64,000 nt of DNA, taken from the NCBI GenBank assembly GCA_928724745.1, contig CAKMXJ010000007.1:726501-790500 (forward strand). The letters run 5' to 3'. The notes beneath the pieces were generated by a model. It ran no database searches. It was given only the letters and a program-made list of their open reading frames with translations, and was not told the origin of the DNA. The DNA is from Anthracocystis setariae (Eukaryota; Basidiomycota; Ustilaginomycetes; Ustilaginales; Ustilaginaceae). The position numbers and the translations under genes were made by a program. Of this stretch, positions 32,378-61,417 are shown one piece after another; position 1 is the stretch's first letter; the number at the start of each line of letters is the position of its first letter.

Positions 32378-33643
32378 CTACTGAGGCAGTGGCTGGAACA
32401 GCTGCCAGGCATCCAGGCACTGTTGACGGTAGGCCTGCTTGACCTCTTCAGGTGTGTCACAGGCCCGGCCGCCATAGCCATCCCACTTGGCCACATCACT
32501 GGACATGAACATGGTCATGCTTCCCCGAGTCTCTCCTTCCAGAATAGGAGAGTTGAAGTGGTGCAGCACATGGGAGGGGAAGAAGCAGAGCGCACCGGGG
32601 GGAAAGTCAAGGCTGACCTTGGCCTCTGCAAAGCTGATCTGCAGCTTGGTGTAGTCACCGTAGCTAAAGACACCGGCAAGCCCTTGCAGGTAGTCACGCC
32701 TGTCCCTGTGTGGCAAGCTGTACGCCTGGCCTTCCTGGTTGATGGCAAGGGAAGGGAAGCAGGGCGCCCACAGGAAGGCACCGTGGGGCCTGTAGTGGTG
32801 GGAGGCTCCAATGTGCATGTGGTGGCTTGCGTGCTCAGGGAAGCACTCGAAGAACTTGGTGTTGCAGTACTCCTGTAGCGCTTTGATGTGCCTATTCCTG
32901 AGGAACTTGATCATAGGCCTGTAGTTCCTTACAAAGCGTTCATTAAAGTAGGGCTTGTCCATGTGGGCCGTGTCTTGTCCGCTGAGCATGAGATGAAATG
33001 TGAAGAAGTCTCCACGCAGAGACTCTACTGGCGCTCCGGCTGACTTGGGCAGCGCTGCTTGAAGGCGTCTGAACTCCTGGTACATGGCGTCAAACTCTGG
33101 CGAGTCTGGCTTCTTGATGATGCTGGCGTAATGGAGTCCGTTGCAGTCGACAAGGTGGACCGTGTCTTCCTGACCCTCGAAGGTGACCGATTGGAATCCT
33201 GTGGTGTCTGCAGGGACGCTGAGCTTGGGCAGCTGGTATTCCTTGTTGAAGAAGGCCTTGAGATCGAGCTGATTGGTAGCTACAACTCTGGCGGTGTGGT
33301 TGTGGAGCTTTGCCTGCTTTGCCGCTCTTCCTTGGTCTCTTGCTTGGTCCCAACCTATGAAGAGATCAGACTGAGGAGTGTACTGGCTAACAAGGCACTT
33401 GGATTGCTTTTTAGGGGCCTTTGAAGCGTCAAGCTTGGCTACATCTTTGGCTAACTTGAGTGTGTCAGCACTGGGGGTGTACTGAGGCAAATTGGGGGCG
33501 TGGTACTTTGCCAAATTTTCTCTAAGTTTGCTGAGATCTCCCTTGACCATTTCTTCTGCTTTCTTCCTTTCCTTCTCGCTTCCAAAGCCTCTAGAGCGTG
33601 TGCTGTGGTCCTTAGGCCTCCACTGGCTGGTCAGGAGCACCAT
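32378..33643 (-). CDS. 2-oxoglutarate/Fe(II) dioxygenase, TET/JBP-like candidate (paralogue 1)
   Basis: A 421-aa protein. The C-terminal part has the double-stranded beta-helix signature of 2OG-Fe(II) oxygenases: His312 and Asp314 in PHRDRRDYLQGL, a strand KLQISFAEAKVSLDFPPGAL, the distal His in FFPSHVLHHFNSP (358, 361 or 362) and the 2OG-binding Arg373 in RGSMTMF. An HRD followed by D/N four residues later is also typical of TET enzymes, and fungi carry expanded TET/JBP families in transposons; substrate (5-methylcytosine or other) is not shown by the sequence. The N-terminus (to ~110) is Lys-rich and probably DNA-contacting or disordered. ATG at 33643 follows a TATA box by 115 nt. Tail-to-tail with the 945-aa gene. 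It is only distantly related to the two dioxygenases at 41 and 45 kb. Confidence 0.8.
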   Translation of the reverse strand: MVLLTSQWRPKDHSTRSRGFGSEKERKKAEEMVKGDLSKLRENLAKYHAPNLPQYTPSADTLKLAKDVAKLDASKAPKKQSKCLVSQYTPQSDLFIGWDQARDQGRAAKQAKLHNHTARVVATNQLDLKAFFNKEYQLPKLSVPADTTGFQSVTFEGQEDTVHLVDCNGLHYASIIKKPDSPEFDAMYQEFRRLQAALPKSAGAPVESLRGDFFTFHLMLSGQDTAHMDKPYFNERFVRNYRPMIKFLRNRHIKALQEYCNTKFFECFPEHASHHMHIGASHHYRPHGAFLWAPCFPSLAINQEGQAYSLPHRDRRDYLQGLAGVFSYGDYTKLQISFAEAKVSLDFPPGALCFFPSHVLHHFNSPILEGETRGSMTMFMSSDVAKWDGYGGRACDTPEEVKQAYRQQCLDAWQLFQPLPQ

Positions 33644-33864: not shown

Positions 33865-33985
33865 AGGGTTCTAATGCTTATCCCCAGCTAGGCAGCTCTG
33901 GAAGACGGTCCATTTGAAAATTGGAAGACGGTCCAATACAAATAAGACGGTCCAATACAAATTAAGACGGTCCAATACAAATTAG
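33865..33985 (+). repeat. Leader repeat, copy 2, with short GACGGTCC array
   Basis: Direct repeat of 28125-28215, here preceded by ATTAGCAAAGGG and followed by only four or five degenerate GACGGTCCAATACAAAT units instead of the large minisatellite. Confidence 0.75.
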
Positions 33986-33992
33986 ACCGGAC

Positions 33993-34143
33993 GCGTCCAA
34001 AATTCCTGCTTTTTCCGCTTAGTCAGCATGTGTCACAACACGTGTTCTAACACGTCCGGAGACGTCGGAAATTCCTGCTTTTTTCTGCTTGTTCAGAACG
34101 TGTCACAACACGTGTTCTAACACGTCCGAAGGCGTCCGAAATT
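33993..34143. repeat. Two 70-bp tandem copies containing an ACACGTGT palindrome
   Basis: Both copies contain AAATTCCTGC followed by GTGTCACAACACGTGTTCTA, 70 bp apart (34031 and 34101). The palindrome ACACGTGT and nearby repeated ACGTGT/ACACGT half-sites make dyad-rich sequence suited to protein binding. Confidence 0.7.
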
Positions 34144-34567
34144 CCTAGCCCTAGGCCGTGGTGCGCCGGCTGCACGCGACGGTCAAATCCGTCGCCCATT
34201 TCCCTGCCAAATGGCGGGGCCTGCCATTTGTACGTCACCCCAATGGACAGCCAAATTTACACTGCTCCAGTGCAGCGACGTCAAATGCCAGATTTTAGCA
34301 GGAGCAACGGGCAACGGGCAACGGACGCGTCAAAATTACAAGGAAATTGGCTGGGCAATGGTCAAAGTGGAGGACTGGTCCAGTGCCTGATGTACAGATC
34401 CAACTTTGACACTGGAGCTGTGCCCAAAGTACAGATCCGGTGAGCGTGTCCGTTGATCCATCAACTATGGGTCAGCACGCAATCCTTTTTCCTGTCTGTC
34501 AGACCGCCAGCATGTCAATTGACCAGCACATTCATTTTCTTTGACTGTCAGACCGCCATCAAGTCTA
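34144..34567. repeat. Block duplicated at 60659-61077
   Basis: Nearly identical to 60659-61077 from CCTAGCCCTAGGCCGTGG onward, ending in AAGTCTA. It marks the left part of unit II that survives in the deletion derivative. The + strand ORF across it is not convincing as a gene. Confidence 0.88.
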
Positions 34568-34578
34568 TTGATCAGCAT

Positions 34579-34631
34579 GTCAGCTTTTCAGCGCGTCAGC
34601 TTTCCAGCGCGTCAGCTTTTCAGCGGGTCAG
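34579..34631 (+). repeat. 16-bp tandem repeat (GTCAGCTTTTCAGCGC)
   Basis: Three copies and a partial fourth, starting at 34579, 34595, 34611 and 34627. Confidence 0.8.
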
Positions 34632-34941
34632 TTGAAATGTCCGGACTGGATCCCTTTGTTCACCACCACACAATGCCATTGCCAACACCATCTCCCTTTG
34701 TCCTTCTCCAAGGCGTGACATGCCTATCCAACCTATCAGCATGCGTCCAGTCAAGGATCCCCTTTGTTCCCACGCTCAGCCATTGTTTGGGCTGGGGCAA
34801 GTACAGCCGTTGTGTGCAAAAATTTTCACTGCGCTTGCCTGGCAGACTGTCCTGCCATGTGCATGCTCTGTCTGTACTACATTGTCTGTGAGTCATGCAC
34901 ACTGAATGGCGTCGCTGAGCTGGCTGGACGGGCCTCAGTGG

Positions 34942-34947
34942 TATATA
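34942..34947 (+). promoter_or_regulatory. TATA box of the recombinase-like/RecQ gene
   Basis: GTGGTATATAGATG, 107 nt before the exon-1 ATG. Its context resembles the TATA box of dioxygenase paralogue 1. Confidence 0.55.
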
Positions 34948-35054
34948 GATGGGAGCCTGTTCTGCAGAGGACATCACATCCTCATCCTCTCTGTACCAAT
35001 CTCACTCAAATCTCTACGCCCATCATCAACGCAGACTGCTCAACGTCTCCAATC

Positions 35055-38000
35055 ATGACTCCACAGTCACCGCCTCCTGCCAACAACAGCCAGGCTGATG
35101 GCAACATCATTGCAGCACTTGACAACAAGTCAGTGGAAACTCCCTTGCTTGAAACGTAAGCTATTTGTGTCCTGTCCCCACGCATCACCAGCAATTAGCG
35201 TGTTTCTGATACATGTGTCTTTCTCCAACACAGTCCTGTCTTACCTGCTGCAAACCAGCTGGCCGCCAATGCTGCTGCTGTTCCTGACATTGCAGCTGCT
35301 GACAGCCGTGCAGCTGCTGCTGCCCAAGGCGCTGACTTTGGCCGCTTCTATCTCCGCTTGGTCAATCACCCGCAGTTGCTCGTCTGCACGCGCATTGGCT
35401 GTACTCTTGGAGTCCCGCTGACACCCTTGTTCAAAGATGTTACTGCTCACCTGCAGCGTTTCCATCACCAGCCTCTTGGTGATGCTTCACGCCGCGCTAT
35501 CCAGGCCATGCTTGATCAGCTTGACCTGCCGCTTCCCAAGGATGTCACTGTGGACCAAGATCAGCTGCCTGTGCCCAAGATCAAGGAGCTGCCGGTGGTC
35601 ACAGACGGTTACCAGTGCAACCACTGCTCCTACGCCATCTTTGCCAGGAATGCCATGTACGCTCACCTCAAGGACAAACACGCAGACCTGAAGGTCAAAG
35701 CCAAGTCTACGCACCCTGTCCTGCTGCAGGTCATCCAGGAACATGGCAAGAACAAGCGCTACATCTATGTGCAGGACAAGGAGCTGGACCCCACGCCTCC
35801 ACAAGCCATCCTCAACCCCAACTTGGATGCACGCCAGCTGGACAATGCCATCAAAGCCAAGGCTGCTGCATTCATCCAGCAGGATCAAGATGCTCTCCGT
35901 GATGCAGGTCTGCTCAACCCTGTTGTGGACACGTCCATGCGCACCGGCAACATTGGTCCCTGGGCCAAGCAGCTCAAGTGGCGCTCCTACTGGGCAGGAA
36001 AGCCGCTGACTGCCATTGGCGCCTTGGGCACAGACATGTCAAGCTGGCCTGGCGCTCACAGTGACTTTGTTCACTGGCTGGCTAGAATGACCAAAGCCTT
36101 TGCTCTGCATTGGATGCAGGCCTTTATGGACTCTGGCCGCTACATGCAGCAGACATTCCGCGCCTACAGTGATGAGCCGTCCGAGCCCTACAACCTCCAG
36201 CCTCCCACCATCAAGAAGCGGGCTGACATGTGGGGCAATGTCCTTGCTCTACTTGCACACCTTGCCTTGGATGGTGAGGCCCTCCACTATCACGGCAGCA
36301 GGACAGAGGAGCAGCATCTGGTGGTCACAGAAGAGGCCACAGAGGCCATTCTACACCTGCGTGACTTGTCAACGCTCTTTGACAATGACAATGATGCCAG
36401 CGCCAACACCAGTGCACTTGCAGCTGCAGAGCACCAGCAACACATTCATGAGGTCACCCTTGCAGTGGAAGAAGCGCTGCTCAGCCTGTCCCACCAGCTC
36501 ATCACGCAGCGGCCAGCAAAGCACGGTCAGACAGATGAGCTGATGCTGGTGCGTCTCTTCATGCACATGTGTGTGGACAGGGAAGGCATGCCCAAAGCCG
36601 TCAGCGCTGCCACCTCCATCATCGCCAGCCTGGAGTTCTGCATGCGTGCTGTGTTGCACCACTACCTCTTCAATGACACCAATGGTCAGCTCTTGAAGAT
36701 GTCTCCATCTCAGACGGACAAGGCCATGCGCAAGCACCTCAAGGAGAACGTCTACCACAACAGCAACTCTGCCAGCGCCCACCTCCAGTCTCTCCACCGC
36801 TACGGCAAGGTGCTTGCTCAGGATGAAGTCACGCCATTCATCTGTTCTTGGGCGCACGACCTCAGCCACATCAAGTACGGAACAGAGGAGATCCAGATCA
36901 CACGCCTCCAAGCTCTGATGCAGGGTGCACAGGAACAGGCAGAGCGTCACCTGCGTCAGCTGTGTCTGCTCCCAGAGGACGCCACGCTGGCCATCAACCT
37001 CAAACACATCCAAGATGATCACCGCAACACGCAACCAGGCTTCAACTTTGTCACCGCCTCCCCAGAGCTCAGCAACCTCAGCACCGTCCTCTGCTGTGCC
37101 GTTGCTGGCAACGCCCCACCAGCGCAACCGCTGCTGGATGCCTACAGTGAGGAGCTGGAGTTTGATGCAGAAGCAGCACAGTCCTACTTCAGCACGCACA
37201 ACGAGTTCATCAAGCTGCTTGCTGTTCTCATTGAACTGGGCAGCGGTCTGCCAGCAAGAGGTACGGAACTGATGCAGCTTCAGCACACCAACACGCTCAT
37301 GGGTCCACGCAACATCTTTGTCCATGATGGCAGCGTCTTCACAGCACTGCCCACCAACAAGGGCTCAGGGCGGCAAAGGATCATCCCACGCTTCCTGCCT
37401 CATGCAGTTGGCTGCATGGTGGTCTACTACGTCTCTCAGGTGGCGCCCTTTGTCCATCTGCTTCACAATGCCATCATTAAGCCCCGCCCAGCCTGCCACA
37501 TGCTTCTTTCTATGCACAGTGGGCAGCCGCTGGACACCAACACCGTCAGCAAGATGCTGCAGGCGCTCCATCAGCAGCACATCAGCTCTGTCTCCAGCGG
37601 CATGACCATGCGCATGTGGCGCCAGGTTGCGGTAGCCATTGACCGCAAGCTCATCCGTCCAGGCTCTGCAAGCATGTCCAGCAAGGAAACAGATCAAGAC
37701 AACGAGCATGATCTCCAAGCAGGTCACTTGACCAGCACTGCAGAGCAGCACTACGGCCTGGATGCAAGCATGCTCTACCAGCTCACGCAGGAAAGCATGG
37801 ACCGCATGCTGGCGGTGTCAGAGCGCTGGCACACATTCTGGAGGATGCGCACGCGCTTTCAAGAGGACACACAGCCGTTCAACCAACTTGTTGAGCTTGG
37901 AAGCGGTGCTGACCACGCACAGGAGCTCAGAGGCATCAAGCGCAAGTTGGAGCTGGTAGAAGAGAGCGTGCTCACCATCAGATGCAAGCTGGAACACCAC

Positions 38001-40058
38001 ACTCCACCATCAGCGCACAGCACTGGCGGCAGCCTGCAGCTCAGCGGTGCTTCACGCTCTGCTGTGCTCCCACCAGCGGTCAGCAGGGCCCTCTTCCAGA
38101 TTACCGGCAGCCACCGCACCAAGACACTGGAGCAGGCATACGCACTCAATGCCATTCACGCCAAGGAGTCTCCACTGATCATCATCATGGCCACTGGATC
38201 CGGCAAGTCTGCACTCTTCATGGCTCCACTGCACTGGCTGCCAGAGCGGTCTGTCATCATTGTGGTGGTGCCCTTCATTGCGCTGACAGATGACCTCCTG
38301 CAAGACTGTCGCCGTGTTGGTGTCACTGCCAAGCGGTGGGCCAGCCACCAACCGTCAAGAACAGTAGCAGGTGTGGGAGCCCAGCTGGTCTTTGTTGCAG
38401 TGGAGAACTGCCACAGTGTGGAGTTTGCCAACTGGGCACGCATCTTGCAAGAAGAAAAGCAGCTGGCGGCCATCTTCTTTGATGAGTGTCACGTCTGCCT
38501 CACTCAGAGCAACTTCCGACCTGCCATGGACAAGATCAAGGCGTTGCTGTCTTCTGTGCATGTGCAGCAGTACTTCCTCACTGCCACGCTACCACCTGCG
38601 CTGGTGTCCACCCTCAAGACAGCGCTCCAGCTCCCGCATGACGGCACAGGCATGATACGTGCCAGCACCAACCGCAAGAACATCTCCTATGCGGTGCAAC
38701 GGCTGAAGTCAGAGGACAGCATGTTGCTCTGCTTGGAAGAGCTCCTTGCAGCGCATCCAACAGGAGCAGTGATGGTCTTTTGCATCTCCAAGTCGGCCAC
38801 AGCATTCACCGCAACAGCGCTTGGCTGCCCCTTCATCACATCAGACATGGATGAGGCATACAAGCAGACCACCATCTCAGCCTGGTTGCGGTGCTCCACC
38901 ACAGAGACTGACAACAGCAAGCGCATCCTGGCAGGCACCACCGCCATTGGAACCGGCATCAACCCGCAGCACGTCAAGCTGGTAGTGCACTGCAGCAACA
39001 CGTTTGACATGATCAGCTATGTCCAAGAGTCTGGCCGTGCAGGCCGCAGCGGAGCACCAGCAACAGCAGTGCTGCTTGCAGTGAACAACACATCGGTCCA
39101 GCAGTACGTGGAGGAGCAGACATGCCGGCGCTTGATCATCTCCACCTACATTGATGGCATGCCGGTCACCTGCCTCAGCCAGCCAGACTTTGCGCTCTGT
39201 GACCTTTGCCATCAAGCAGTTGGGGAAGAACCTGGCACGCCACCCAGAACAACCATTGCAGTGGAGTCTCCTCCTGTCCACCAGCCCCGTCATGCCAGCA
39301 GCAGCTCACGTCAGACACTGCAGCGCACACCCACCACCCCACAGCATCACAATGCAAGCGCTAGCAGCAGCAGGCTGCAGCAGATTACCAGCACCAGCGC
39401 CTTGCGCTCACCAGCAGCACCGTACACGCCCACTCCACGCACGCTACACAGGGTCAATCAGCAGCCCAGTCCATCGGCCATGTTCTCTCACCGCTTGATG
39501 CCAGCACCACCTGACTTTGGCTCACCAGTGCGCGCAGCTGATCCCAATGTCTCCCACATACGCTCATTGCTGGAGCCGCTGGTGGACCGCTGCTCCCTCT
39601 GCTATCTCTTCAGCCGCAGTCACACATGCAGTGGAGAGCATGGTCTCAGCCACCGCTTCAAAGACTGTGCATGCTGGAACCAGATAGAGGCGCTGCTGCC
39701 GGAGACAGAGGATCCAGAACGCATCAATGGCACGCACATTGGCAAGATCAAGAACTGCATGCGGAAGGACAAGGGAAGTACGTGCTGGACATGCCTGGTG
39801 CCAACAAAGGTGTGCTTGACCAGCAACGTCTCGGTGGCCACACCTTGCTCAAGGCGGTATGCAGATATAGTGTTGCCAGTGGTAGCTGCCATGCTCAGAG
39901 ATGAGCCGTCTTGTATTGATGTGTTTCAGCAGCTTGGCCGTCCCTTTGTGGACTTGGAGATGGTGGAGGCAGAGCTAGGAACCACAGTGCTGTATCATGG
40001 TGAGCGTGTCTTCCTAGCGTTTGCCATCTTTGCCACCGCTGTTCAGCTGGCAGGTTAG
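35055..40058 (+). CDS. Zinc-finger / tyrosine-recombinase-like / RecQ-type helicase fusion (telomere-linked helicase type)
   Basis: Exon 1 is 35055-35155, the intron 35156-35233 (GTAAGC...CAACACAG, 78 nt), exon 2 35234-40058, giving 1641 aa; the frame is open upstream of 35358 and joins exon 1 in phase. The N-terminus has OrsD-type Cys/His fingers (LVCTRIGCTLGV...HLQRFHH and YQCNHCSYAIFARNAMYAHL...KH). The middle (~690-890) resembles a tyrosine recombinase: Arg709 in LPARGTELMQL, a Lys/Arg strand after it, RMWRQVAVAI (827-830) in the place of HxxR, and His865 plus Tyr874 in GHLTSTAEQHYG. The C-terminal helicase has ATGSGKS (~1020), DECH (1117-1120), LTATLPP, GTTAIGTGIN and QESGRAGRSG (~1297). 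A Cys-rich tail ends it. RecQ helicases of this type sit next to telomeres in smuts and other fungi. The recombinase call is an inference from motif order. Confidence 0.85.
35156..35233 (+). other. 78-nt intron in the helicase gene
   Basis: Donor GTAAGC, acceptor TTCTCCAACACAG. Exon 1 encodes MTPQSPPPANNSQADG and about 17 more residues; the spliced phase matches the open frame that continues upstream of 35358. Confidence 0.75.
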
Positions 40059-40284
40059 TTGTCAACAGCAGCTCAGCAATGTGATGTGAGGAATACAGGT
40101 TTGCATAGCAGAGATTGGAACAGCATGATCAGCAAGTGAAAGTGCTGCTTGCAAAGCATGACTGTCAGCGTACATGCAATGGTTGATATACGCCGTGAAT
40201 GGTAATCTACGTCAAGGCTGCCCTATACAGAAGACAATGGGGCATCACATGTGTTATTGGGGAAAACACCTCAGGAACGTAACA
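40059..40284. other. Spacer after the helicase gene
   Basis: AT-rich 3' flank of the helicase gene; no coding or structural feature seen. Confidence 0.4.
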
Positions 40285-40430
40285 AGTACACTTAGCCTAG
40301 GTGATTGATGTCTGCATTTTATGTGGATTATTGAGAACCCGCAAGGGAAAAGGGGCCTTTCAGGAATCGAAGGGGCGTGGGTTCAATCCACGTTGTCGCA
40401 CTGTTACCGTGTTAATCCTCCGTCACAAGC
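40285..40430 (+). other. tRNA-like module with Pol III A and B boxes, copy 2
   Basis: TAGCCTAGGTG at 40293-40303 fits the A box; GGTTCAATCC at 40380-40389 is one base short of the usual B box. The B box is the loop of a good hairpin (CGTGG...CCACG). It shares ATTGAGAACC, GGAAAAGGGGCC and GTTAATCCTCCG with copy 1 and likewise follows the large gene of its unit, about 235 bp past the stop codon. Confidence 0.45.
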
Positions 40431-40646
40431 GCTAGAAGTCTACGGTCAAATCTGTTTTCTATGGATAGCCGTGAACTGACAGCGCTTGTGACGTGACTTT
40501 GTTTTTTGCTGTTGTACTGACATTGTTCTGTGTCTAGCAGACGGGAAAGCATGGGAACCACAGGACAAGTACAAAGCAGTCTGTGTTGAAGATGGAGAGT
40601 CAAATCACGGAGAGCCTTCTTTCCTTTGCGGTAATTGAATTTTCCA

Positions 40647-41045
40647 AGGCAGCACAGCACAGAGGGGGACGTGTCTCTGAGAATCAGATTTTTGCTCGGA
40701 GAGGAAAGTCCCCCTTTGCCAGAAGTTCGAAGGCAAATTACTTGGATTTTTCAAGGCAGCCCAGCACAGTGGGGGGACGTGTCTCTGAGAATCAGATTTT
40801 TGCTTGGAGAGACAAGTCCCCCTTTGCCAGAAGTTCGAAGCCAAATTGCTTGAAATTATTTTTCAGGCAGCACAGCACAGTAGGGGGACGTGTCTCTGAG
40901 ATTCAGATTTTTGCTCAGAGAGACAAGTCCCCCTTTCCTGGAAGTTCGAAGCCAAATTGCTTGGAAATATTTTTCAGGCAGCACAGCACAGTGGGGGACT
41001 TGTCTCTTCGATCTACTTTTTGAATCTGAGAGACAAGTCCCCCTC
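40647..41045. repeat. Four ~111-bp repeats, each with a GGGGGAC...GTCCCCC hairpin
   Basis: Units start near 40647, 40754, 40865 and 40976 with AGGCAGCACAGCACAG. Each holds inverted arms; in the last unit the 15-nt arms 40993-41007 and 41029-41043 are perfectly complementary with a 21-nt loop, in the others nearly so. The array ends ~50 bp before the ATG of dioxygenase 2, so it lies in that gene's promoter or leader. The deletion derivative keeps two units (61187-61375). Confidence 0.88.
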
Positions 41046-41094
41046 CTTCTCGATGCTGAACTGTTGCAATCACCCCAGACCTCTTAATACATCC

Positions 41095-42117
41095 ATGCCA
41101 GCCAAGTCTCAAGCAGCTTTGGATCGAAAGAAGGAGGCCACAGCAGTCAGGGATGCAGAGAGAAGGAGAAGCTATCGAGACTTACAAAAGGAGACCTACA
41201 AGATCCATCTTTCTCGAAGGCATCATATCAACAAGGCCTCAGCCCTATCCAGCTTCGATGATCTTGAGCTCAAACCACTTGGAGAGGTCAATGACAAGTA
41301 TCCAACTCGAAGAAACCTCACTCTAGTGGACAGACAGAGCAAACAGATCGTGCTTCAGAGGATTTCACCTACCAGTTACACCAAAATGCTCGAAGCTAGA
41401 GCATCCTCCATCAAAGGTCGAGACTACCTGAATGCATACCTATCCAAGAAGGCCTCAGCATGGCATATCAAGAGGTCAGACATTGAGTCTAGCAAGCAGC
41501 AGCTCAAGTTCAAGCTCACAAGAAGGAAAGTTGTCGAACATCATCTTGGCATCTGGCATTCTCGAGGCAAAACCAGCCTAGACTTCACCAAAGAGACCTC
41601 CAATCATCAATACAAGGATCAAGCACTCGATCTTCTCCTCTGGGCAAAGCAGCACATGGCCAGCACAATGCAATCTTCGAAGAAATTGATGGATTCCAGC
41701 TTCAGACACAACCTCAAGACTCGAAGCAAAAGTACCAAGTGGCTAGCCTCGATCTTTGAACCATCCAATGTCGACCTTCTCCACCCCTACTGGACCACTA
41801 TAGCCTTCTTCTCCAACTTTGCAGGGGGTCTACATCGAGATGAGCAGGATTGTATCCCTTCTTTCCTATTCAACTTCGAAGAAGCTGCTTGGCTGGAGCT
41901 GCCAGAGTTCTCGGTCAAGATCCTTATCAATCCTCTCGACATGGTCATACTCAACTCTCACACCTACTGGCATCGAACCAAACCTGTGGATTCTGAGTCT
42001 ACAGCTGGAAAGAGATGGGCATTCAGTGGTTTCTATCGAGAGTCCATCTACAATCAAGAACCTATCACTAGCATTGCACATAAGAGACTCGAGGCTATCA
42101 ATGAGAAGCACAAGTAA
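41095..42117 (+). CDS. 2-oxoglutarate/Fe(II) dioxygenase, TET/JBP-like candidate (paralogue 2)
   Basis: A 340-aa protein. Iron and cosubstrate residues: His247 and Asp249 in LHRDEQDCIPSFLFNF, distal His (289 or 293) in LNSHTYWHRTKP, and Arg307 in KRWAFSGF. The N-terminus is highly basic (KSQAALDRKKEATAVRDAER), suggesting nucleic-acid contact. It shares with paralogue 3 the order LQR-x-PTSY, HLGIW, LLWAKxH, YWTT-FF, H-x-D-x2-D-x-IPS-FNF and RWAFS, so the two are true paralogues. The open frame starts earlier at a TTG; ATGs exist at 41053 and 41095, and 41095 is preferred because the basic N-terminus starts there and the derivative copy keeps that ATG with MPATSQA. It lies between two sets of hairpin repeats. 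A function in DNA base oxidation is only inferred. Confidence 0.82.
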   Translation: MPAKSQAALDRKKEATAVRDAERRRSYRDLQKETYKIHLSRRHHINKASALSSFDDLELKPLGEVNDKYPTRRNLTLVDRQSKQIVLQRISPTSYTKMLEARASSIKGRDYLNAYLSKKASAWHIKRSDIESSKQQLKFKLTRRKVVEHHLGIWHSRGKTSLDFTKETSNHQYKDQALDLLLWAKQHMASTMQSSKKLMDSSFRHNLKTRSKSTKWLASIFEPSNVDLLHPYWTTIAFFSNFAGGLHRDEQDCIPSFLFNFEEAAWLELPEFSVKILINPLDMVILNSHTYWHRTKPVDSESTAGKRWAFSGFYRESIYNQEPITSIAHKRLEAINEKHK

Positions 42118-42387
42118 TTCCATTCCAGACTCGAAGAGAAAAAGGGGGGATTCTGAATGACCAGCTCCAAAAAGGCTCGAGACCCCCAAAATCTGACCTG
42201 GCTGAAAATTTTTGCCGAGTTTCCCCTATTTTGATCCTGCCACCCAAGTCTGATTTCCGAGTTCCATAATTTCCCTGACGTGTTTTTTGCATTCTGAGTG
42301 TTAGTTCATACCGAGTGTTGGTCCAATTGATGATTTTGGTCAGGTATTCCTCATTGGCACGTGTTCTTGACCTTCTGCGTGGTCTGG

Positions 42388-42393
42388 TATATA
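42388..42393 (+). promoter_or_regulatory. TATA-like box before the 323-bp hairpin repeats
   Basis: GGTCTGGTATATACCCTTGC, preserved exactly in the derivative copy at ~61757-61776. It may drive transcription through the hairpin repeats; no ORF of note follows. Confidence 0.3.
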
Positions 42394-42509
42394 CCCTTGC
42401 TGATACAGAGCCTCAACAAGAACACGCTTTACTGGATCTCTGCCATATGTAGGAAGTAGCACCAGTCCAAGACGTACACAGTGCACAAAAAGACAGGTCA
42501 AAAAGCTTG

Positions 42510-43862
42510 CATTTTCAGGTACTTACCTTTGACATGCCTTTATCTGTCCAAAATCAGCCAATAAAGGCATGTCAAAGTGAAGTCACGCATAGGTGAAGCT
42601 ATCAAGGCGCAACTTGGTGTTCCAAACTCAGGATGAGCCTGTGCAATGTCCTATAGCATAGAGCCAGCAAGAAACAAACCTTTGCATTCACGCGTGTTTC
42701 CTTGCGGATCAGTAGCAGCACCCAGTTTCCGCATGGATAGCCAGAACACCTCTGAGAGACAAATGGCTGTCATAGGCAGCTGCAGTAGGTTGAGAGGAGT
42801 CCAGAACACTATTTTGCGTGGAAGATTTCTTGCGTTTTCAGGTACTTACCTTTGGCATGCCTTTATCTGTCCAAAATCAGCCAATAAAGGCATGTCAAAG
42901 TGAAGTCACGCATAGGTGAAGCTATCAAGGTGTGACTTTGTGTTCCATACTCAGGATGAGCCTGCGCAATGTCCTATGGGGTAGAGAAGTCAATATATGA
43001 GCCTTTGTGTTGACGCGTTTTTCCTTGCGGATCAGTAGCAGCACCCGGTTTCTGCGTGGATAGCTGGAACACCTCTGAGAGACAAATAGCTGTGATAGGC
43101 AGCTGCAGCAGGTTGAGAGGAGCCCAGAACACTATTTTGCGTGGAAGATTTCTTGCATTTTCAGGTACTTACCTTTGACATGCCTTTATCTGTCCAAAAT
43201 CAGCTAATAAAGGCATGTCAAAGTGAAGTCACGCATAGGTGAAGCTATCAAGGCGCAACTTGGTGTTCCAAACTCAGGATGAGCCTGTGCAATGTCCTAT
43301 AGCATAGAGCCAGCAAGAAACAAACCTTTGCATTCACGCGTGTTTCCTTGCGGATCAGTAGCAGCACCCAGTTTCCGCATGGATAGCCAGAACACCTCTG
43401 AGAGACAAATGGCTGTCATAGGCAGCTGCAGTAGGTTGAGAGGAGTCCAGAACACTATTTTGCGTGGAAGATTTCTTGCGTTTTCAGGTACTTACCTTTG
43501 ACATGCCTTTATCTGTCCAAAATCAGCCAATAAAGGCATGTCAAGGTAAAGTCCCCGGTCTTGGGTCCATTTTGGATCTGCCTTTTGTGTACACACTCAG
43601 AAGAGGTTGCTCCAGTGTCCTATAGGCTAGAAAGTGGGACAGCTACACTTTAGCTTTCACGCTGTTGCCTACCCCAGCACCTCCTCCAGCAGTCAATTAT
43701 GCAAAGTGCTCAGGGAGCAAATCCTATGCTATAGGACACTGCATGATGCTGAAGGGACCTCAGAACACTCATTTGCGTGGAGAATATCTTGCGTTTTATG
43801 GTACCTGCCTTTGACATGCCTTTAATCATCTGAAATCAGCAACTAAAGGCATGTCAAGGTAA
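42510..43862. repeat. Tandem ~323-bp repeats each carrying a 16-bp-stem hairpin
   Basis: Hairpins at 42527, 42850, 43173, 43496 and 43809 (spacings 323, 323, 323, 313). The stem is CTTTGACATGCCTTTA / TAAAGGCATGTCAAAG with a loop of about 19 nt; only the second and the last two hairpins have small departures. Each unit also carries AGGTACTTACC before the stem and a CCTATAG motif. The short open frames inside repeat with the unit and are not likely genes. Confidence 0.92.
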
Positions 43863-44411
43863 AGTTGGTGGGAACAAGTCCACTTTGAGTCTGTCTTTTG
43901 TGTACAAGCTCAGAATTAGCTGGTACAGTCTCCTATAGTATAGGATGAGTGAGACCTGTGCCACTAACCCCCACCGCATCTCCTAGTCATTGCCCAACTC
44001 AGTTCAGTGTCACACAGTCAAGACATGTCAGGATAGGTGAAGAGCTGCCTTGCTTTGAGCCATGCTTCTCAGTCATCAGACATATCCAACAGCACCAACA
44101 TTGTATCTGCATCAAGGTCCAACTCTAGCTACATCAGCCCCCCAGGCTCAGCAAGAGTCCTGTACTAGCAACCAAGTTTGTCTTTTCCAGGAGCGCCTTG
44201 ACAATGTTATCAGTATATCTTATCAATCTTATCAGGCAGCTCCTTCTATCCCATGAAGGAGAAAATGTCATCCTATCTAACAAATAGATTATACCTGCAA
44301 ACAAACAAAACCCACACCATGTGGCTGTTCCTGACTGTTTGGTTCTGTCCCAGATGCAGGTACCTTCTGTGCATGTCCCTGCATGGAAGCAGAGCTGCAG
44401 GAAGGTAGATA
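43863..44411. other. Right end of unit II and spacer
   Basis: Up to ~44060 it matches 62911-63110 of the derivative, including ACTAACCCCCACCGCATCTC-type sequence; after that the two diverge, so unit II probably ends here. No gene seen. Confidence 0.5.
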
Positions 44412-44904: not shown

Positions 44905-45846
44905 ATGGTGTCAAAAAAGAACAAAGCTAAGAACAACCTGGAGAAGAAGAAGAGGGAGTCTTTTAATCTTGCAAAGGCTCATGCTCAGATTCTCTCCCTG
45001 CCCAACTTGGAATATGGAAAGACCACTCCAGACTCATCTTTCTCTGTTGTTGGTGCTCCCATTCTTGTTTCTGACTTCCCTGATCCTGTCAGCACCAATC
45101 TGACCATCTTGGACTCAGCCACTTCTGCTCCAGTTCTTCAGAGGTTCAGACCTACCAGCTACAACAAGAGATCTGCTGCCAACTCGTCTGCAGCCAAGGG
45201 GTATCCACTCTACAAGCTAGCCCTCACCTCCAGACCAAAAGGAACAGAGGGCAGAGGCACCATGCATCTTGGAATCTGGCCTGAGCAGGGCAACTTCAAG
45301 TACAACCACAGCAGAGACACCACACACAATCCCAATGCTGCAAATCTTCTCAAGTGGGCTAGGGATCACTCCAATGATCACTTTAACCACATCATCCCTT
45401 TCTTGCATCCAACTTGGAGAGAGAACTACCAGCAGAGGCCTTCTTCGTTGCAGTGGCTTAGGGACTTCTTCAAGGAGCAAGCAGAGCCACTTCCTGACTA
45501 CTGGAGCACCTGCACATTCTTCAACACCTTCACCAACAACATTCACCCTGATCCTCTTGATACTGTGCCTTCCCTCCTCTTCAATTTTGGTGCTCCAACC
45601 ATGGTCAGGATCATCCCATATGGCATTGATGTGCAGATGGATCACCTGGACATCATGGTCTTCAACACCAGACTGTTGCACAAGACTTGGGACCCACAAC
45701 CAGACAGCAATCAGGAGAGGTGGGCCTTCTCAGCATTTCTCAGGCAGACCATCTTTGATAAAGTCCCTCCCAGCAACCTCTCTGCTGAAAAGCTCAAGCC
45801 TGGAGAACAGCCCCCCAAGAAAAGGTTCAGATCTGCTGCACCCTAG
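44905..45846 (+). CDS. 2-oxoglutarate/Fe(II) dioxygenase, TET/JBP-like candidate (paralogue 3)
   Basis: A 313-aa protein with a Lys-rich start (VSKKNKAKNNLEKKKRESF) and a basic tail (PPKKRFR) that could be a nuclear signal. Catalytic residues: His214 and Asp216 in NIHPDPLDTVPSLLFNFG, distal His259 in FNTRLLHKTW, Arg272 in ERWAFSAF. It aligns along its length with paralogue 2 through LQRFRPTSYNKR, HLGIW, LLKWARDH and DYWSTCTFFNTF. The open frame extends 35 codons upstream from a TTG; the ATG at 44905 matches the basic start seen in paralogue 2. It lies outside the part duplicated at 60.7-63.1 kb. Nuclear, DNA-directed activity is inferred. Confidence 0.8.
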   Translation: MVSKKNKAKNNLEKKKRESFNLAKAHAQILSLPNLEYGKTTPDSSFSVVGAPILVSDFPDPVSTNLTILDSATSAPVLQRFRPTSYNKRSAANSSAAKGYPLYKLALTSRPKGTEGRGTMHLGIWPEQGNFKYNHSRDTTHNPNAANLLKWARDHSNDHFNHIIPFLHPTWRENYQQRPSSLQWLRDFFKEQAEPLPDYWSTCTFFNTFTNNIHPDPLDTVPSLLFNFGAPTMVRIIPYGIDVQMDHLDIMVFNTRLLHKTWDPQPDSNQERWAFSAFLRQTIFDKVPPSNLSAEKLKPGEQPPKKRFRSAAP

Positions 45847-46359
45847 TGTCAATGCACTCCTTTAGCTTCGCTTCCAGAGCCCTTGTGTGTGCTGTGCAAA
45901 CAAAGCAGCTCATGAGCCTTGCATTCAATGCTTTGTCTGTGGACACAATGCAACCAACACCATGCACTCCTTTACCTTTGCTTCCAAGGCCCTTGTGTAT
46001 CTAACAAAAGTAGCTCCTGAGCCTTGCACTCAATATTCTGTCTTGTACACAAAGCAGCGCTTTAGCTTGGCTTCCAAGGCTATATCCGTGATCACAGACA
46101 CCCTCCTCTAGGTTGGCTTCCAGAGTTTTCATATGATAGCAATGCAAGCAACATACTGACACATGACACCTCTTGAATTGAGCAAAGGTTGAGACAGAGC
46201 TGTGCTTGCAAGATGCCTGGTGGTATCAACCATGTTTTCAGTGCCATACAGGAGGATGACACATCTGGTGACACATTCAGTGCGCAGCTGAACTTGCATC
46301 AAGTGCGGCTTGCTGGCTCAATAACCTCTTTCTAGATCCTGAAGCTGTTGGATCCTATA
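45847..46359. repeat. Imperfect ~110-bp repeats between dioxygenase 3 and the satellite
   Basis: Two copies with ATGCACTCCTTTA-C-TTYGCTTCC and GAGCCTTGCA (about 45853 and 45962), and a weaker third near 46060, show internal duplication. They resemble the leader of dioxygenase 3. No gene seen. Confidence 0.55.
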
Positions 46360-49300
46360 ACCAAGGTGTGGAGCTTGCTGACTGCTGCTGCAGCGCTCCG
46401 ATAGGACCAACAAGCATGTCAACATGCACACACAGGGTGTAGACTGTCCAAAAAGGCGTTACGCAAGGCAAAACAATCGTCGTACGTGTGACACCAAAAA
46501 CACGCAAGCTTCAAAGATGGAAAGCAGGAGCTGTCTGTGTGCTTCCACAGTGTTGCCAACCGTCTGAAAAGGGTGTCTGCAGGTCATTGCAGCTGCATAC
46601 GGAGAGTGGAACATCAAAACGCAAGGCAAAACAATCATCATACGTGCAGAACCGTAAACACGCTCATCTCCGATGGCAGGTCCAGGACCATGCTCCAGTG
46701 CTTCCAACAAGTGTATACAGGTGTGCGACAATGTGGAACACAGTGAGCCAGCATCACAGAGGAGGATCGGTGTCTGCTGTGTACCATCACGGTCAAAGAC
46801 GGTGGGATCACATGTCACACGGTAGAGCTTCCGACACCATTTCAACAGCATTGTAGCAGCACCAGAGCGGCCAGGCATTGTGTTGGTCACTGTACAGGCT
46901 GTAGATACCATACCGATGCTGCCAATACATCCATTCCAGCTGCCACCGCACACCACCAGCGCTCCAAGTGTCCAGCTGCAAACACGTGAAAACATAGACT
47001 CACCGTTCTTGTCTCCCGCTTCCAACGATGGCGTTCCCAGGGTATGGCAAACATCCAGCAGCTAGATCATATGCACCAGCAATGCTACATGTCAAATCAT
47101 GCTCAAAAACAGGGCCACAAAAAGAACATGGATCCAACGCAACCAGTGTAAACATGCGTAAACGCACACATGAAAACTATGTAGAGACACCACAGGAGGC
47201 CGTGTAGGGTTGGGGTTAGAGTTAAGGTTGGGGTTAGCGTTAGAGGTTGGGATATATATATCACACAGGCCAGGATCAGTGTCCATCACAATCTCCAGGT
47301 GCAATGTATCTTTGTCGGTACAACTACGATCACGTGCTTGCGTCAGCAAGCTGTGTGTGTCAACAAGAGTGTCAGCAAAGGTTATCAACATGCAACAGCA
47401 GTGTACAAAGCAGTGTCTGCGTGTCTGCCACCCAGTTCTCCATGTCGCTACACACCATCACCGTGTCGGCTGTATCAGAGGTATGTGAACTTGTGTTTCA
47501 GGTGTTGGACACCGTAACCAAGGTGTGGAGCTTGCTGACTGCTGCTGCAGCGCTCCAATAGGACCAACAAGCATGTCAACATGCACACACAGGGTGTAGA
47601 CTGTCCAAAAAGGCGTCACGCAAGGCAAAACAATCGTCGTACGTGTGACACCGAAAACACGCAAGCTTCAAAGATGGAAAGCAGGAGCTGTCTGTGTGCT
47701 TCCACAGTGTTGCCAACCGTCTGAAAAGGGTGTCTGCAGGTCATTGCAGCTGCATCGGAGAGTGGAACATCAAAACGCAAGGCAAAACAATCATCATACG
47801 TGCAGAACCGTAAACACGCTCATCTCCGATGGCAGGTCCAGGACCATGCTCCAGTGCTTCCAACAAGTGTATACAGGTGTGCGACAATGTGGAACACAGT
47901 GAGCCAGCATCACAGAGGAGGATCGGTGTCTGCTGTGTACCATCACGGTCAAAGACGGTGGGATCACATGTCACACGGTAGAGCTTCCGACACCATTTCA
48001 ACAGCATTGTAGCAGCACCAGAGCGGCCAGGCATTGTGTTGGTCACTGTACAGGCTGTAGATACCATACCGATGCTGCCAATACATCCATTCCAGCTGCC
48101 ACCGCACACCACCAGCGCTCCAAGTGTCCAGCTGCAAACACGTGAAAACATAGACTCACCGTTCTTGTCTCCCGCTTCCAACGATGGCGTTCCCAGGGTA
48201 TGGCAAACATCCAGCAGCTAGATCATATGCACCAGCAATGCTACATGTCAAATCATGCTCAAAAACAGGGCCACAAAAAGAACATGGATCCAACGCAACC
48301 AGTGTAAACATGCGTAAACGCACACATGAAAACTATGTAGAGACACCACAGGAGGCCGTGTAGGGTTGGGGTTAGAGTTAAGGTTGGGGTTAGCGTTAGA
48401 GGTTGGGATATATATATCACACAGGCCAGGATCAGTGTCCATCACAATCTCCAGGTGCAATGTATCTTTGTCGGTACAACTACGATCACGTGCTTGCGTC
48501 AGCAAGCTGTGTGTGTCAACAAGAGTGTCAGCAAAGGTTATCAACATGCAACAGCAGTGTACAAAGCAGTGTCTGCGTGTCTGCCACCCAGTTCTCCATG
48601 TCGCTACACACCATCACCGTGTCGGCTGTATCAGAGGTATGTGAACTTGTGTTTCAGGTGTTGGACACCGTAACCAAGGTGTGGAGCTTGCTGACTGCTG
48701 CTGCAGCGCTCCAATAGGACCAACAAGCATGTCAACATGCACACACAGGGTGTAGACTGTCCAAAAAGGCGTCACGCAAGGCAAAACAATCGTCGTACGT
48801 GTGACACCGAAAACACGCAAGCTTCAAAGATGGAAAGCAGGAGCTGTCTGTGTGCTTCCACAGTGTTGCCAACCGTCTGAAAAGGGTGTCTGCAGGTCAT
48901 TGCAGCTGCATCGGAGAGTGGAACATCAAAACGCAAGGCAAAACAATCATCATACGTGCAGAACCGTAAACACGCTCATCTCCGATGGCAGGTCCAGGAC
49001 CATGCTCCAGTGCTTCCAACAAGTGTATACAGGTGTGCGACAATGTGGAACACAGTGAGCCAGCATCACAGAGGAGGATCGGTGTCTGCTGTGTACCATC
49101 ACGGTCAAAGACGGTGGGATCACATGTCACACGGTAGAGCTTCCGACACCATTTCAACAGCATTGTAGCAGCACCAGAGCGGCCAGACATTGTGTCGGTC
49201 ACTGTACAGGCTGTAGATACCATACCGATGCTGCCAATACATCCATTCCAGCTGCCACCGCACACCACCAGCGCTCCAAGTGTCCAGCTGCAAACACGTG

Positions 49301-52300
49301 AAAACATAGACTCACCATTCTTGTCTCCCGCTTCCAGCGATGGCGTTCCCAGGGTATGGCAAACATCCAGCAGCTAGATCACATGCACCAGCAATGCTAC
49401 ATGTCAAATCATGCTCAAAAACAGGGCCACAAAAAGAACATGGATCCAACGCAACCAGTGTAAACATGCGTAAACGCACACATGAAAACTATGTAGAGAC
49501 ACCACAGGAGGCCGTGTAGGGTTGGGGTTAGAGTTAAGGTTGGGGTTAGCGTTAGAGGTTGGGATATATATATCACACAGGCCAGGATCAGTGTCCATCA
49601 CAATCTCCAGGTGCAATGTATCTTTGTCGGTACAACTACGATCACGTGCTTGCGTCAGCAAGCTGTGTGTGTCAACAAGAGTGTCAGCAAAGGTTATCAA
49701 CATGCAACAGCAGTGTACAAAGCAGTGTCTGCGTGTCTGCCACCCAGTTCTCCATGTCGCTACACACCATCACCGTGTCGGCTGTATCAGAGGTATGTGA
49801 ACTTGTGTTTCAGGTGTTGGACACCGTAACCAAGGTGTGGAGCTTGCTGACTGCTGCTGCAGCGCTCCAATAGGACCAACAAGCATGTCAACATGCACAC
49901 ACAGGGTGTAGACTGTCCAAAAAGGCGTCACGCAAGGCAAAACAATCGTCGTACGTGTGACACCGAAAACACGCAAGCTTCAAAGATGGAAAGCAGGAGC
50001 TGTCTGTGTGCTTCCACAGTGTTGCCAACCGTCTGAAAAGGGTGTCTGCAGGTCATTGCAGCTGCATCGGAGAGTGGAACATCAAAACGCAAGGCAAAAC
50101 AATCATCATACGTGCAGAACCGTAAACACGCTCATCTCCGATGGCAGGTCCAGGACCATGCTCCAGTGCTTCCAACAAGTGTATACAGGTGTGCGACAAT
50201 GTGGAACACAGTGAGCCAGCATCACAGAGGAGGATCGGTGTCTGCTGTGTACCATCACGGTCAAAGACGGTGGGATCACATGTCACACGGTAGAGCTTCC
50301 GACACCATTTCAACAGCATTGTAGCAGCACCAGAGCGGCCAGGCATTGTGTTGGTCACTGTACAGGCTGTAGATACCATACCGATGCTGCCAATACATCC
50401 ATTCCAGCTGCCACCGCACACCACCAGCGCTCCAAGTGTCCAGCTGCAAACACGTGAAAACATAGACTCACCGTTCTTGTCTCCCGCTTCCAACGATGGC
50501 GTTCCCAGGGTATGGCAAACATCCAGCAGCTAGATCATATGCACCAGCAATGCTACATGTCAAATCATGCTCAAAAACAGGGCCACAAAAAGAACATGGA
50601 TCCAACGCAACCAGTGTAAACATGCGTAAACGCACACATGAAAACTATGTAGAGACACCACAGGAGGCCGTGTAGGGTTGGGGTTAGAGTTAAGGTTGGG
50701 GTTAGCGTTAGAGGTTGGGATATATATATCACACAGGCCAGGATCAGTGTCCATCACAATCTCCAGGTGCAATGTATCTTTGTCGGTACAACTACGATCA
50801 CGTGCTTGCGTCAGCAAGCTGTGTGTGTCAACAAGAGTGTCAGCAAAGGTTATCAACATGCAACAGCAGTGTACAAAGCAGTGTCTGCGTGTCTGCCACC
50901 CAGTTCTCCATGTCGCTACACACCATCACCGTGTCGGCTGTATCAGAGGTATGTGAACTTGTGTTTCAGGTGTTGGACACCGTAACCAAGGTGTGGAGCT
51001 TGCTGACTGCTGCTGCAGCGCTCCAATAGGACCAACAAGCATGTCAACATGCACACACAGGGTGTAGACTGTCCAAAAAGGCGTCACGCAAGGCAAAACA
51101 ATCGTCGTACGTGTGACACCGAAAACACGCAAGCTTCAAAGATGGAAAGCAGGAGCTGTCTGTGTGCTTCCACAGTGTTGCCAACCGTCTGAAAAGGGTG
51201 TCTGCAGGTCATTGCAGCTGCATCGGAGAGTGGAACATCAAAACGCAAGGCAAAACAATCATCATACGTGCAGAACCGTAAACACGCTCATCTCCGATGG
51301 CAGGTCCAGGACCATGCTCCAGTGCTTCCAACAAGTGTATACAGGTGTGCGACAATGTGGAACACAGTGAGCCAGCATCACAGAGGAGGATCGGTGTCTG
51401 CTGTGTACCATCACGGTCAAAGACGGTGGGATCACATGTCACACGGTAGAGCTTCCGACACCATTTCAACAGCATTGTAGCAGCACCAGAGCGGCCAGGC
51501 ATTGTGTTGGTCACTGTACAGGCTGTAGATACCATACCGATGCTGCCAATACATCCATTCCAGCTGCCACCGCACACCACCAGCGCTCCAAGTGTCCAGC
51601 TGCAAACACGTGAAAACATAGACTCACCATTCTTGTCTCCCGCTTCCAACGATGGCGTTCCCAGGGTATGGCAAACATCCAGCAGCTAGATCATATGCAC
51701 CAGCAATGCTACATGTCAAATCATGCTCAAAAACAGGGCCACAAAAAGAACATGGATCCAACGCAACCAGTGTAAACATGCGTAAACGCACACATGAAAA
51801 CTATGTAGAGACACCACAGGAGGCCGTGTAGGGTTGGGGTTAGAGTTAAGGTTGGGGTTAGCGTTAGAGGTTGGGATATATATATCACACAGGCCAGGAT
51901 CAGTGTCCATCACAATCTCCAGGTGCAATGTATCTTTGTCGGTACAACTACGATCACGTGCTTGCGTCAGCAAGCTGTGTGTGTCAACAAGAGTGTCAGC
52001 AAAGGTTATCAACATGCAACAGCAGTGTACAAAGCAGTGTCTGCGTGTCTGCCACCCAGTTCTCCATGTCGCTACACACCATCACCGTGTCGGCTGTATC
52101 AGAGGTATGTGAACTTGTGTTTCAGGTGTTGGACACCGTAACCAAGGTGTGGAGCTTGCTGACTGCTGCTGCAGCGCTCCAATAGGACCAACAAGCATGT
52201 CAACATGCACACACAGGGTGTAGACTGTCCAAAAAGGCGTCACGCAAGGCAAAACAATCGTCGTACGTGTGACACCGAAAACACGCAAGCTTCAAAGATG

Positions 52301-59957: not shown

Positions 59958-59958
59958 A

Positions 59959-60472: not shown

Positions 60473-60505
60473 TTAGGGTTAGGGTTAGGGTTAGGGTTAG
60501 GGTTA
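60473..60505 (+). repeat. Interstitial telomere repeat, (TTAGGG)5
   Basis: Five perfect TTAGGG units plus TTA on the + strand, oriented as at a right chromosome end but buried in the sequence. Confidence 0.97.
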
Positions 60506-60598: not shown

Positions 60599-60615
60599 AA
60601 GTTGCATAATAAGGG

Positions 60616-60648
60616 TTAGGGTTAGGGTTAGGGTTAGGGTTAGGGTTA
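60616..60648 (+). repeat. Interstitial telomere repeat, second (TTAGGG)5
   Basis: Five perfect TTAGGG units plus TTA, then CACTGGGTTTCC and the deletion derivative of unit II. Confidence 0.97.
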
Positions 60649-61186
60649 CACTGGGTTTCCCTAGCCCTAGGCCGTGGTGCGCCGGCTGCACGCGACGGTC
60701 AAATCCGTCGCCCATTTCCCTGCCAAATGGCGGGGCCTGCCATTTGTACGTCACCCCAATGGACAGCCAAATTTACACTGCTCCAGTGCAGCGACGTCAA
60801 ATGCCAGATTTTAGCAGGAGCAACGGGCAACGGGCAACGGACGCGTCAAAATTGCCAGGAAATTGGCTGGGCAATGGTCAAAGTGGAGGACTGGTCCAGT
60901 GCCTGATGTACAGATCCAACTTTGTTACTGGCGCCGTGCCCAAAGTACAGATCCGGTGAGCATGTCTGTGGGAGCATCAACTCCAGGTCAGCACCTGTTT
61001 TCCATCTGTCAGACCGCCAGCACATCAATTGACCAGCGCATCCATTTTCTTTGACTGTCAGACCACCATCAAGTCTAGCAGACGGGAAAGCATGGGAACC
61101 ACAGAAGGAGTACAAAGCGGTCTGTGTGGAAGATGGAGAGTCAAATCACGGAGAGCCTTCTTTCCTCTGCGGTAGTTGTATTTTCC

Positions 61187-61375
61187 AAGGCAGCACAGCA
61201 CAGAGGGGGACGTGTCTCTGAGAATCAGGTTTTTTCTCAGAGAGGCAAGTCCCCCTTTGCTGGAAGTCCGAAGCCAAATTGCTTGAAATTATTTTTCAGG
61301 CAGCACAGCACAGTGGGGGACTTGTCTCTTCGATCTACTTTTTGAATCTGAGAGACAAGTCCCCCTCCCTTCTCG
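61187..61375. repeat. Two GGGGGAC hairpin repeats in the derivative
   Basis: Units at about 61187 and 61299 match two of the four units before dioxygenase 2; the second keeps the perfect 15-nt arms. Confidence 0.85.
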
Positions 61376-61417
61376 ATGCTGAACTGTTGCAATCACCCCA
61401 GACTTCTTAATACAATC

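Follow-up and report, generated by a model that had tools for sequence, protein, structure and literature searches.

A RecQ helicase element with one base-exact terminus at CCT near contig ends of the smut Anthracocystis setariae

How does a RecQ-type helicase gene come to lie at the end of a fungal chromosome, and does it travel there as part of something mobile? The question is raised by a 64,000-nucleotide stretch of Anthracocystis setariae (GCA_928724745.1, a 21.5-Mb assembly in 36 contigs, here numbered C1 onwards), which forms the right end of contig C7 (CAKMXJ010000007.1, positions 726501-790500) and which we call the window. Positions without a contig number refer to the window and, unless stated otherwise, to its plus strand. 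A sequence-only reading had placed a two-ended unit of about 10 kb at 33865-44060, in which a tyrosine-recombinase-like/RecQ helicase fusion is followed by a TET/JBP-like dioxygenase. We find an element with a single base-exact terminus, which faces the centromere, sits at CCT, points to the contig end and has been scattered to many unrelated sites. We think it rather probable that this is a mobile element living as a chromosome end, whose recombinase exchanges ends at CCT and whose linked dioxygenase counters methylation.

A fixed terminus at CCT, directed to the contig end

From position 34144 rightward the copies of the element are homologous, reading CCTAGCCCTAGGCCGTGGTGCGC, and to the left of that base most of them have different neighbours. 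The terminus itself, CCTAGCCCTAGG (34144-34155), is an imperfect palindrome, CCTAG-CC-CTAGG. A genome-wide pattern search tolerating up to two mismatches returned 31 termini of this kind (type A), and the reversed control pattern none. A second kind (type B, six termini, counted in the retrieved stretches of the assembly only) opens with the same CCTAGCCCTAGGC and then differs; the first 13 nt, including the C that follows, are common to both types, and their helicases are about 50% identical. The 37 termini fall, by our own grouping, into 30 distinct left flanks, two of which (C8:912329 and C7:787160) are alike over 22 bases. Some flanks are shared by groups of copies: C7/C11/C21-left, C28/C30, C33/C34, C36/C16 and three tandem copies on C5. 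In these nucleotide comparisons BLAST pieces shorter than 150 or 250 bases were left out.

The earlier boundaries did not survive this comparison. Position 33865 lies at the edge of another subtelomeric repeat (33868), and this edge, together with the start of homology at 34144, rules out 33865-44060 as the element. Position 44060 is close to 44056, where three other copies (C6, C9, C7-left) diverge, yet the unit does not stop there: a second dioxygenase gene and a 1156-bp repeat array follow, and after them come TTAGGG repeats at 60.5-60.65 kb. To the right the copies part at several places, and no defined right end with a CCT core was found among them. Only the centromere-proximal end is defined; the other side extends towards the telomere.

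No terminus among the 37 is farther than 65 kb from a contig end. Where the contig measures 100 kb or more, every terminus (30/30) points to the nearer end, as do 5/7 on smaller contigs; by type, the figures are 29/31 for type A (26/26 on the large contigs) and 6/6 for type B (4/4). Some copies begin no more than about 20 bases from TTAGGG repeats (60660 in the window, C8:912329, C8:919346 and C9:61694). The copy at 60660-64000, of type A, is internally deleted, begins 11 bases past a TTAGGG array and reaches the contig end. On C9 a type B element begins 14 bases past TTAGGG repeats and has its helicase gene cut at CCT by a derivative of type A, beyond which the contig closes with 1156-bp repeats followed by a telomere of TTAGGG. 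Five deletion derivatives in the retrieved stretches (C21, C7-left, C8 twice, C9) have one structure in common amid unrelated flanks. The exact terminus, the CCT targets described below, the orientation and these derivatives bear out the earlier idea of an element that moves at chromosome ends.

The target sites were reconstructed from relatives of the interrupted sequences; a relative counted if its alignment came within three bases of the junction and if the element itself did not follow. At 19 of the 30 distinct junctions such a test was possible, and the junction letters were CCT in 14, mixed in two and different in three. CCT was present in 7/8 relatives at C21:450633 and in 62/66 at C7:760644, and one repeat had been hit at two different positions (C21:450633 and C33/C34), both times at CCT. 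The junction thus falls at a short core common to element and target, as expected of elements moved by a tyrosine recombinase. The preceding bases are also biased: C occupies position -1 in 21/30 flanks, against a background before CCT of 0.18 in the retrieved stretches (p 7e-10), and AC|CCT occurs in 11/30, against 0.044 (p 3e-8), so that the site leans to telomeric ACCCT.

Two interrupted genes were followed genome-wide. The missing distal half of the gene interrupted on C9 is confined to copies on C18 and C23, and that of a dioxygenase gene interrupted on C10 to C5, C8, C12 and C32; at neither site does the target sequence resume on the same contig. For seven further targets the retrieved stretches showed the distal half on another contig or nowhere; these targets are not counted, since the stretches searched were short.

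A RecQ helicase with a recombinase-like central domain

Behind the element's 5' region on the promoter side (34144-35054, delimited by the start of homology among copies) lies the helicase gene, 35055-40058. Its coding exons, 35055-35155 and 35234-40055, flank a 78-bp GT..AG intron (35156-35233) and encode 1641 amino acids, exactly the length first proposed. The protein is ordered as an OrsD zinc finger (PF12013, 35370-35681), a central domain, a RecQ-type core (38130-39053, with GSGKS, DECH and QESGRAGR) and a cysteine-bearing tail. Pfam matches to OrsD (E 5e-9), DEAD (3e-14) and Helicase_C (2e-11) all exceed the Pfam cut-offs and the best-matching solved structures are RecQ helicases, so that the fingers and the helicase of the sequence-only reading stand. 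The closest protein relative found, from Kalmanozyma brasiliensis, is 93% identical over frame residues 560-960, as fits a host that is a yeast-like smut or near to one, and the presence of Suillus proteins among the relatives indicates that the architecture extends beyond the smuts. Purifying selection acts on the helicase genes of type A: six of six full-length frames are open, with pairwise ratios of nonsynonymous to synonymous substitution (dN/dS) of 0.12-0.20 (15 pairs). One helicase copy (C20:412474-422165) is divided into two parts about 9.7 kb apart that overlap by 5 bases where they break, much as a retrotransposon insertion would leave them.

The central domain, residues ~664-909 (37122-37859), was compared in an alignment of 23 sequences, the window protein and 22 of its 24 relatives (P0001 and P0007 were left out), the rows of which are not independent: P0018 is seemingly part of P0019, and P0011/P0013/P0015 and P0021/P0023 are close sets. 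In this alignment R709 (37257-37259), K743 (37359-37361) and Y874 (37752-37754) are present in 23/23 sequences, R830 (37620-37622) in 21/23, and H865 (37725-37727) in 18/23, with R in the other five. The residues follow the order R, K, R, H/W, Y of tyrosine recombinases, and both this order and the H-to-Y spacing of 9 match XerD; the first position of box II in the window protein is R, not H. R709, the RMWRQ motif at 827, H865 and Y874 are located exactly where they had been read initially.

Searches with the domain tell against calling it a recombinase. No recombinase family was found for it in Pfam, PHROGs or NCBIfam (12 members scanned singly) or by profile in PDB; the library matches came from single members only, the best being NCBIfam SAV_2336_NTERM (0.0083) and an unnamed PHROG (0.048). 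When the domain was compared with five E. coli and lambda recombinases, hhalign gave a weak alignment (one comparison reached E 0.21), in register at the R-box and RxxR; the control against an unrelated profile was weaker still (0.43). Since no profile library calls the domain a recombinase, the label derives from the pattern of residues and from the genetics of the element, and it is from these two that we infer a tyrosine recombinase.

Linked dioxygenases and a probable mark of methylation

The dioxygenase gene DO1 (41095-42117, ATG at 41095, 340 aa) encodes a TET/JBP-like 2-oxoglutarate/Fe(II) dioxygenase with the HxD-H-R residues intact, as first described: H247xD249, H293 and R307, the two histidines and the aspartate being invariant in 14/14 sequences and the arginine nearly so. 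The predicted structure has a mean pLDDT (predicted local distance difference test) of 82. A second dioxygenase gene, DO3 (44905-45846), is 26% identical to DO1 over 274 positions in protein comparison. A third type, P3, is represented just outside the element by a minus-strand gene at 32378-33643 with a weak match to Pfam Tet_JBP (E 0.037). Genome-wide, Tet_JBP is matched at E<=0.01 by three P3-like genes only (best 0.0013, below the cut-off), all within these elements. The P3-type gene has five near-identical full copies (C7, C19, C14, C22, C10) towards contig ends, and relatives at 46-74% inside type A elements. A P3-type profile retrieved nothing relevant from PDB; between P3 and DO1 there is no BLASTP match, and hhalign aligns them weakly but in register.

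The proposed linkage of helicase and dioxygenase recurs at other copies and exceeds chance. Scoring of 29 of 40 candidates yielded at least ten helicase copies with a C-terminal end, some of them broken, and beside each of them, no more than about 1.2 kb away, lies a dioxygenase gene, whether intact or interrupted: DO1 at C7, C6, C10:814548, C18, C36 and C16, the DO2 type at C10:767420, C26 and C15, and the P3 type at C10:14298. Probably the linkage also exists in Ustilago trichophora, where the helicase UTRI_02570 and the dioxygenase UTRI_02572 have near-neighbour locus tags. Types A and B can have one downstream dioxygenase module in common (homology from 40151 at C16, C18 and C36), which indicates that modules are exchanged.

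The helicase gene is depleted of CpG, the observed/expected ratio being 0.49 in its coding sequence against 0.97 in window positions 1-27000. Among six copies, C>T/G>A singletons fall on 63/494 CpG sites and on 49/2866 other sites (p 2e-25), and TCG is both the most often mutated context (6/16) and the most depleted in the gene. Matches to C5-methylases (DNA_methylase) occur at three places in the genome. The decay of CpG to TpG and the methylase matches make it likely that the element undergoes methylation-linked mutation, and a TET-like enzyme would then have a substrate; we suggest that the dioxygenase acts on the element's own methylated DNA. One methylase match (C22:426197-426604) lies about 430 bases from a contig end and is apparently subtelomeric. 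It may also be recorded that TCGA occurs 0 times in the helicase gene (18.4 expected) and 20 times in DO1 (3.8 expected), where it accounts for 91% of CpGs, opposite regimes within one element.

That the dioxygenase is instead a passenger, or acts on a substrate other than DNA, we consider unlikely, and the evidence has to be taken from both sides. The enzyme's function is a prediction from sequence. A profile of 14 relatives matched two Naegleria Tet-like dioxygenases (E 5.4e-4 and 5.7e-4; the next match was at 0.38), which makes TET/JBP the nearest family, as had been predicted, over 50 of 339 profile positions; DO1 itself has no match to the Pfam Tet_JBP model. DO1 is interrupted in 2/6 copies (C10:820378 and C36) and is less constrained than the helicase, with noisy dN/dS values, computed on a frame that included 65 codons upstream of the ATG, of 0.17-0.64 in nine pairs, 2.35 in one and 0.68-0.81 where the broken C36 copy is one of the pair (five pairs). 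Four weaker relatives (34-36% identical to DO1) are chromosome-internal, at distances of over 100 kb from any contig end. The missing Pfam match, the interruptions, the weaker constraint and these internal relatives favour a passenger and, together with the coverage of the profile match, tell against a dioxygenase that serves the element. On the other side, the Naegleria (NgTET) entries are the sole matches of the DO1 profile at E<0.001, the DO1/DO2, DO3 and P3 types are all located in elements, and two DO2 pairs have dN/dS values of 0.06 and 0.09, while the third differs at two positions only.

A proposed exchange of chromosome ends and its alternatives

We propose that the recombinase-like domain would exchange strands between the terminal CCT of the element and a CCT on a different chromosome, with the fused RecQ helicase opening or processing the junction. 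Because the element extends to the telomere, one crossover would move the entire end, that is, the element, its repeats and the telomere, to the new site and would remove the old distal sequence; copy number would then rise by segregation or by copying. The linked dioxygenase would oxidise 5-methylcytosine put on the element by host methylases, thus keeping it expressed. The lost distal halves (at the two sites tested genome-wide), the stacking on TTAGGG and the orientation make an end-replacing crossover a better fit than insertion of a circle.

Several observations weigh against this proposal. On small contigs two termini (C26:17374 and C30:24400) are directed to the farther end, and no reciprocal product of an end exchange was found. 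Telomere repeats stand on or near sequence resembling retrotransposon pol, judged by eye, at C6:876606-878605 and C8:1-1500; these two ends look as if broken ends had healed there, so that ends must be remodelled in other ways too. The three targets without CCT (C7:7822, C8:919346 and C9:61694) are all short or partial matches, and in the two mixed ones CCT is present in 1/4 relatives (C10:813483) and in 1/71 (C5:8062, where the two best read CTT and CCT). Finally, type B helicase pairs, with few differences between them, give dN/dS values of 0.30-0.54.

The alternative that survives best is an ordinary tyrosine-recombinase transposon of the Crypton or Starship kind, which would insert whole as a circle at CCT and owe its bias in position and orientation to selection or to assembly; we take this to be unlikely though quite conceivable. 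The core identity at the junctions is what tyrosine-recombinase elements leave, and Starships have direct repeats of 2-12 bp that reflect part of the target, according to the excerpt consulted (PMC12153272). Such a transposon does not account for a right end that is undefined, with right sides diverging at different places, for distal target halves missing at both tested sites, or for the single orientation of all 30 termini on large contigs. Our element resembles Cryptons and Starships in its R-K-RxxR-H-Y signature and in the short core identity at the junction, but both ends of those elements are defined, while in ours the chromosome end seems to take the place of the second, and we know of no helicase fusion in either group. 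In Starships, a captain with DUF3435 stands at the 5' end; the eight Pfam families matched by the helicase protein at E<=1 do not include DUF3435, and we rejected Starship membership. Helitron membership was likewise rejected, since no HUH Rep family was matched at E<=1 by the helicase protein and the target is CCT, that of Helitrons being AT.

An immobile telomere-linked helicase repeat, spread by homologous recombination or break-induced replication as yeast Y' elements are, is improbable. It would agree with the confinement of all 37 termini to the outer 65 kb of contigs, and the shared left flanks mean that ectopic exchange or duplication does occur. Homologous exchange would not, however, yield a fixed left end in unrelated sequence, and here 30 distinct flanks join the same terminal base at targets that have CCT. 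The exact terminus and the CCT targets therefore speak against homologous spread as the sole process. Y' elements spread by homologous recombination and have telomere sequence between stacked copies, and to our knowledge they have neither a recombinase nor a fixed terminus at CCT. What they and our element have in common is a helicase gene in a telomere-associated repeat (PMC4522978, in the part available).

Very improbable, lastly, is end healing or target-primed copying, in which the telomere-like end (CTAGGG CTAGG on the lower strand) would join breaks through CCT microhomology and without a recombinase: the resemblance of the terminus to the telomere repeat, the lean of the targets to AC|CCT and a Mycosphaerella telomeric element that also keeps a telomere-repeat end facing away from the telomere (PMC4522978, in part) agree with it, but the helicase, DO1 and DO3 frames, the frames of the unit that were scanned, contain no reverse transcriptase domain, the genes have their 5' side at the fixed end, types A and B have both the terminus and the recombinase-like domain in common, and microhomology joins should scatter on the element side.

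The window also contains several kinds of repeat. Tandem repeats of 111 bp (40639-41044) lie upstream of DO1 and others of 323 bp at 42506-43955 (by repeat analysis to 43553, by similarity on to 43955); the 1156-bp subtelomeric array spans 46343-59958, and the interstitial TTAGGG arrays occupy 60473-60505 and 60612-60648. Another family of subtelomeric repeats, whose left edge, GTTCTAATGCTTATCCCCAG, is sharp, has 12 copies in the retrieved stretches (33868 and 28128 in the window, C8:909797, 910541 and 919256, C10:8595, C25 and others), several of which directly follow TTAGG or TTAGGG. Sequence beyond the telomere repeats at C8:1-50 and C9:67790-67822 resembles a sequencing adaptor, possibly retained in the assembly.

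RecQ-like genes have been reported at fungal chromosome ends since 1998 (PMC10532341, like the papers that follow cited from excerpts), and telomere maintenance is still the role considered for them. Our element meets the description of a telomere-linked helicase, a RecQ-type helicase near telomeres in many copies, and recalls the UTASa/UTASb genes of Ustilago maydis, in that smuts have RecQ-type gene families near telomeres and OrsD is mentioned with UTASb (PMC10532341). In U. maydis 12/12 chromosomal copies are very near telomeres (PMC7593156); in Sporisorium scitamineum a RecQ-related family has 61 members, some near telomeres (PMC4466345); in Agaricus bisporus var. burnettii and other fungi subtelomeric RecQ proteins are described with no domain beyond the helicase core (PMC7473861). 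In the excerpts such helicases are treated as genes or repeats (PMC10532341, PMC7593156, PMC4466345, PMC7473861, PMC12857005, PMC4522978), and nothing is said there of a recombinase domain, of a defined terminus or target site, or of a dioxygenase linked to them. DNA transposons that carry their own TET/JBP genes (KDZ, Plavaka, hAT, EnSpm, Helitron and others) have been proposed to escape methylation by them (Kojima, 2025; PMC12730594), and the likeness to our element is plain; theirs, however, are DDE enzymes, or HUH in Helitrons, from rusts, mushrooms and morels or truffles, where ours is tyrosine-recombinase-like and from a smut. The terms RecQ, Crypton, tyrosine recombinase and Ustilag are absent from the excerpted text of that paper. 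Neither a fusion of RecQ with a tyrosine recombinase nor a TET gene linked to one was among the literature matches listed, from a search outside which most subscription papers fall; one paper that mentions both RecQ helicase and tyrosine recombinase has the two in its reference list only. The parts are known; those matches showed neither their combination nor the CCT terminus nor the replacement of ends.

The fuller claim would be that this is a new kind of chromosome-end element, in which a RecQ-fused tyrosine recombinase exchanges ends at CCT within telomere-like ACCCT, the telomere serves as the other end, TET/JBP-like enzymes counter CpG methylation, and many fungal telomere-linked RecQ helicases are such recombinases; we advance it tentatively, as falling a little short of probable. 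If it is true, a third type of enzyme joins those of the transposons that carry TET/JBP genes, and there would be a site-specific route to new chromosome ends. End-replacing fusions of recombinase and helicase would then explain the spread, the position and the strain variability of fungal telomeric RecQ genes, and end replacement at CCT could be the reason why so many fungal telomeres bear helicase genes of this kind.

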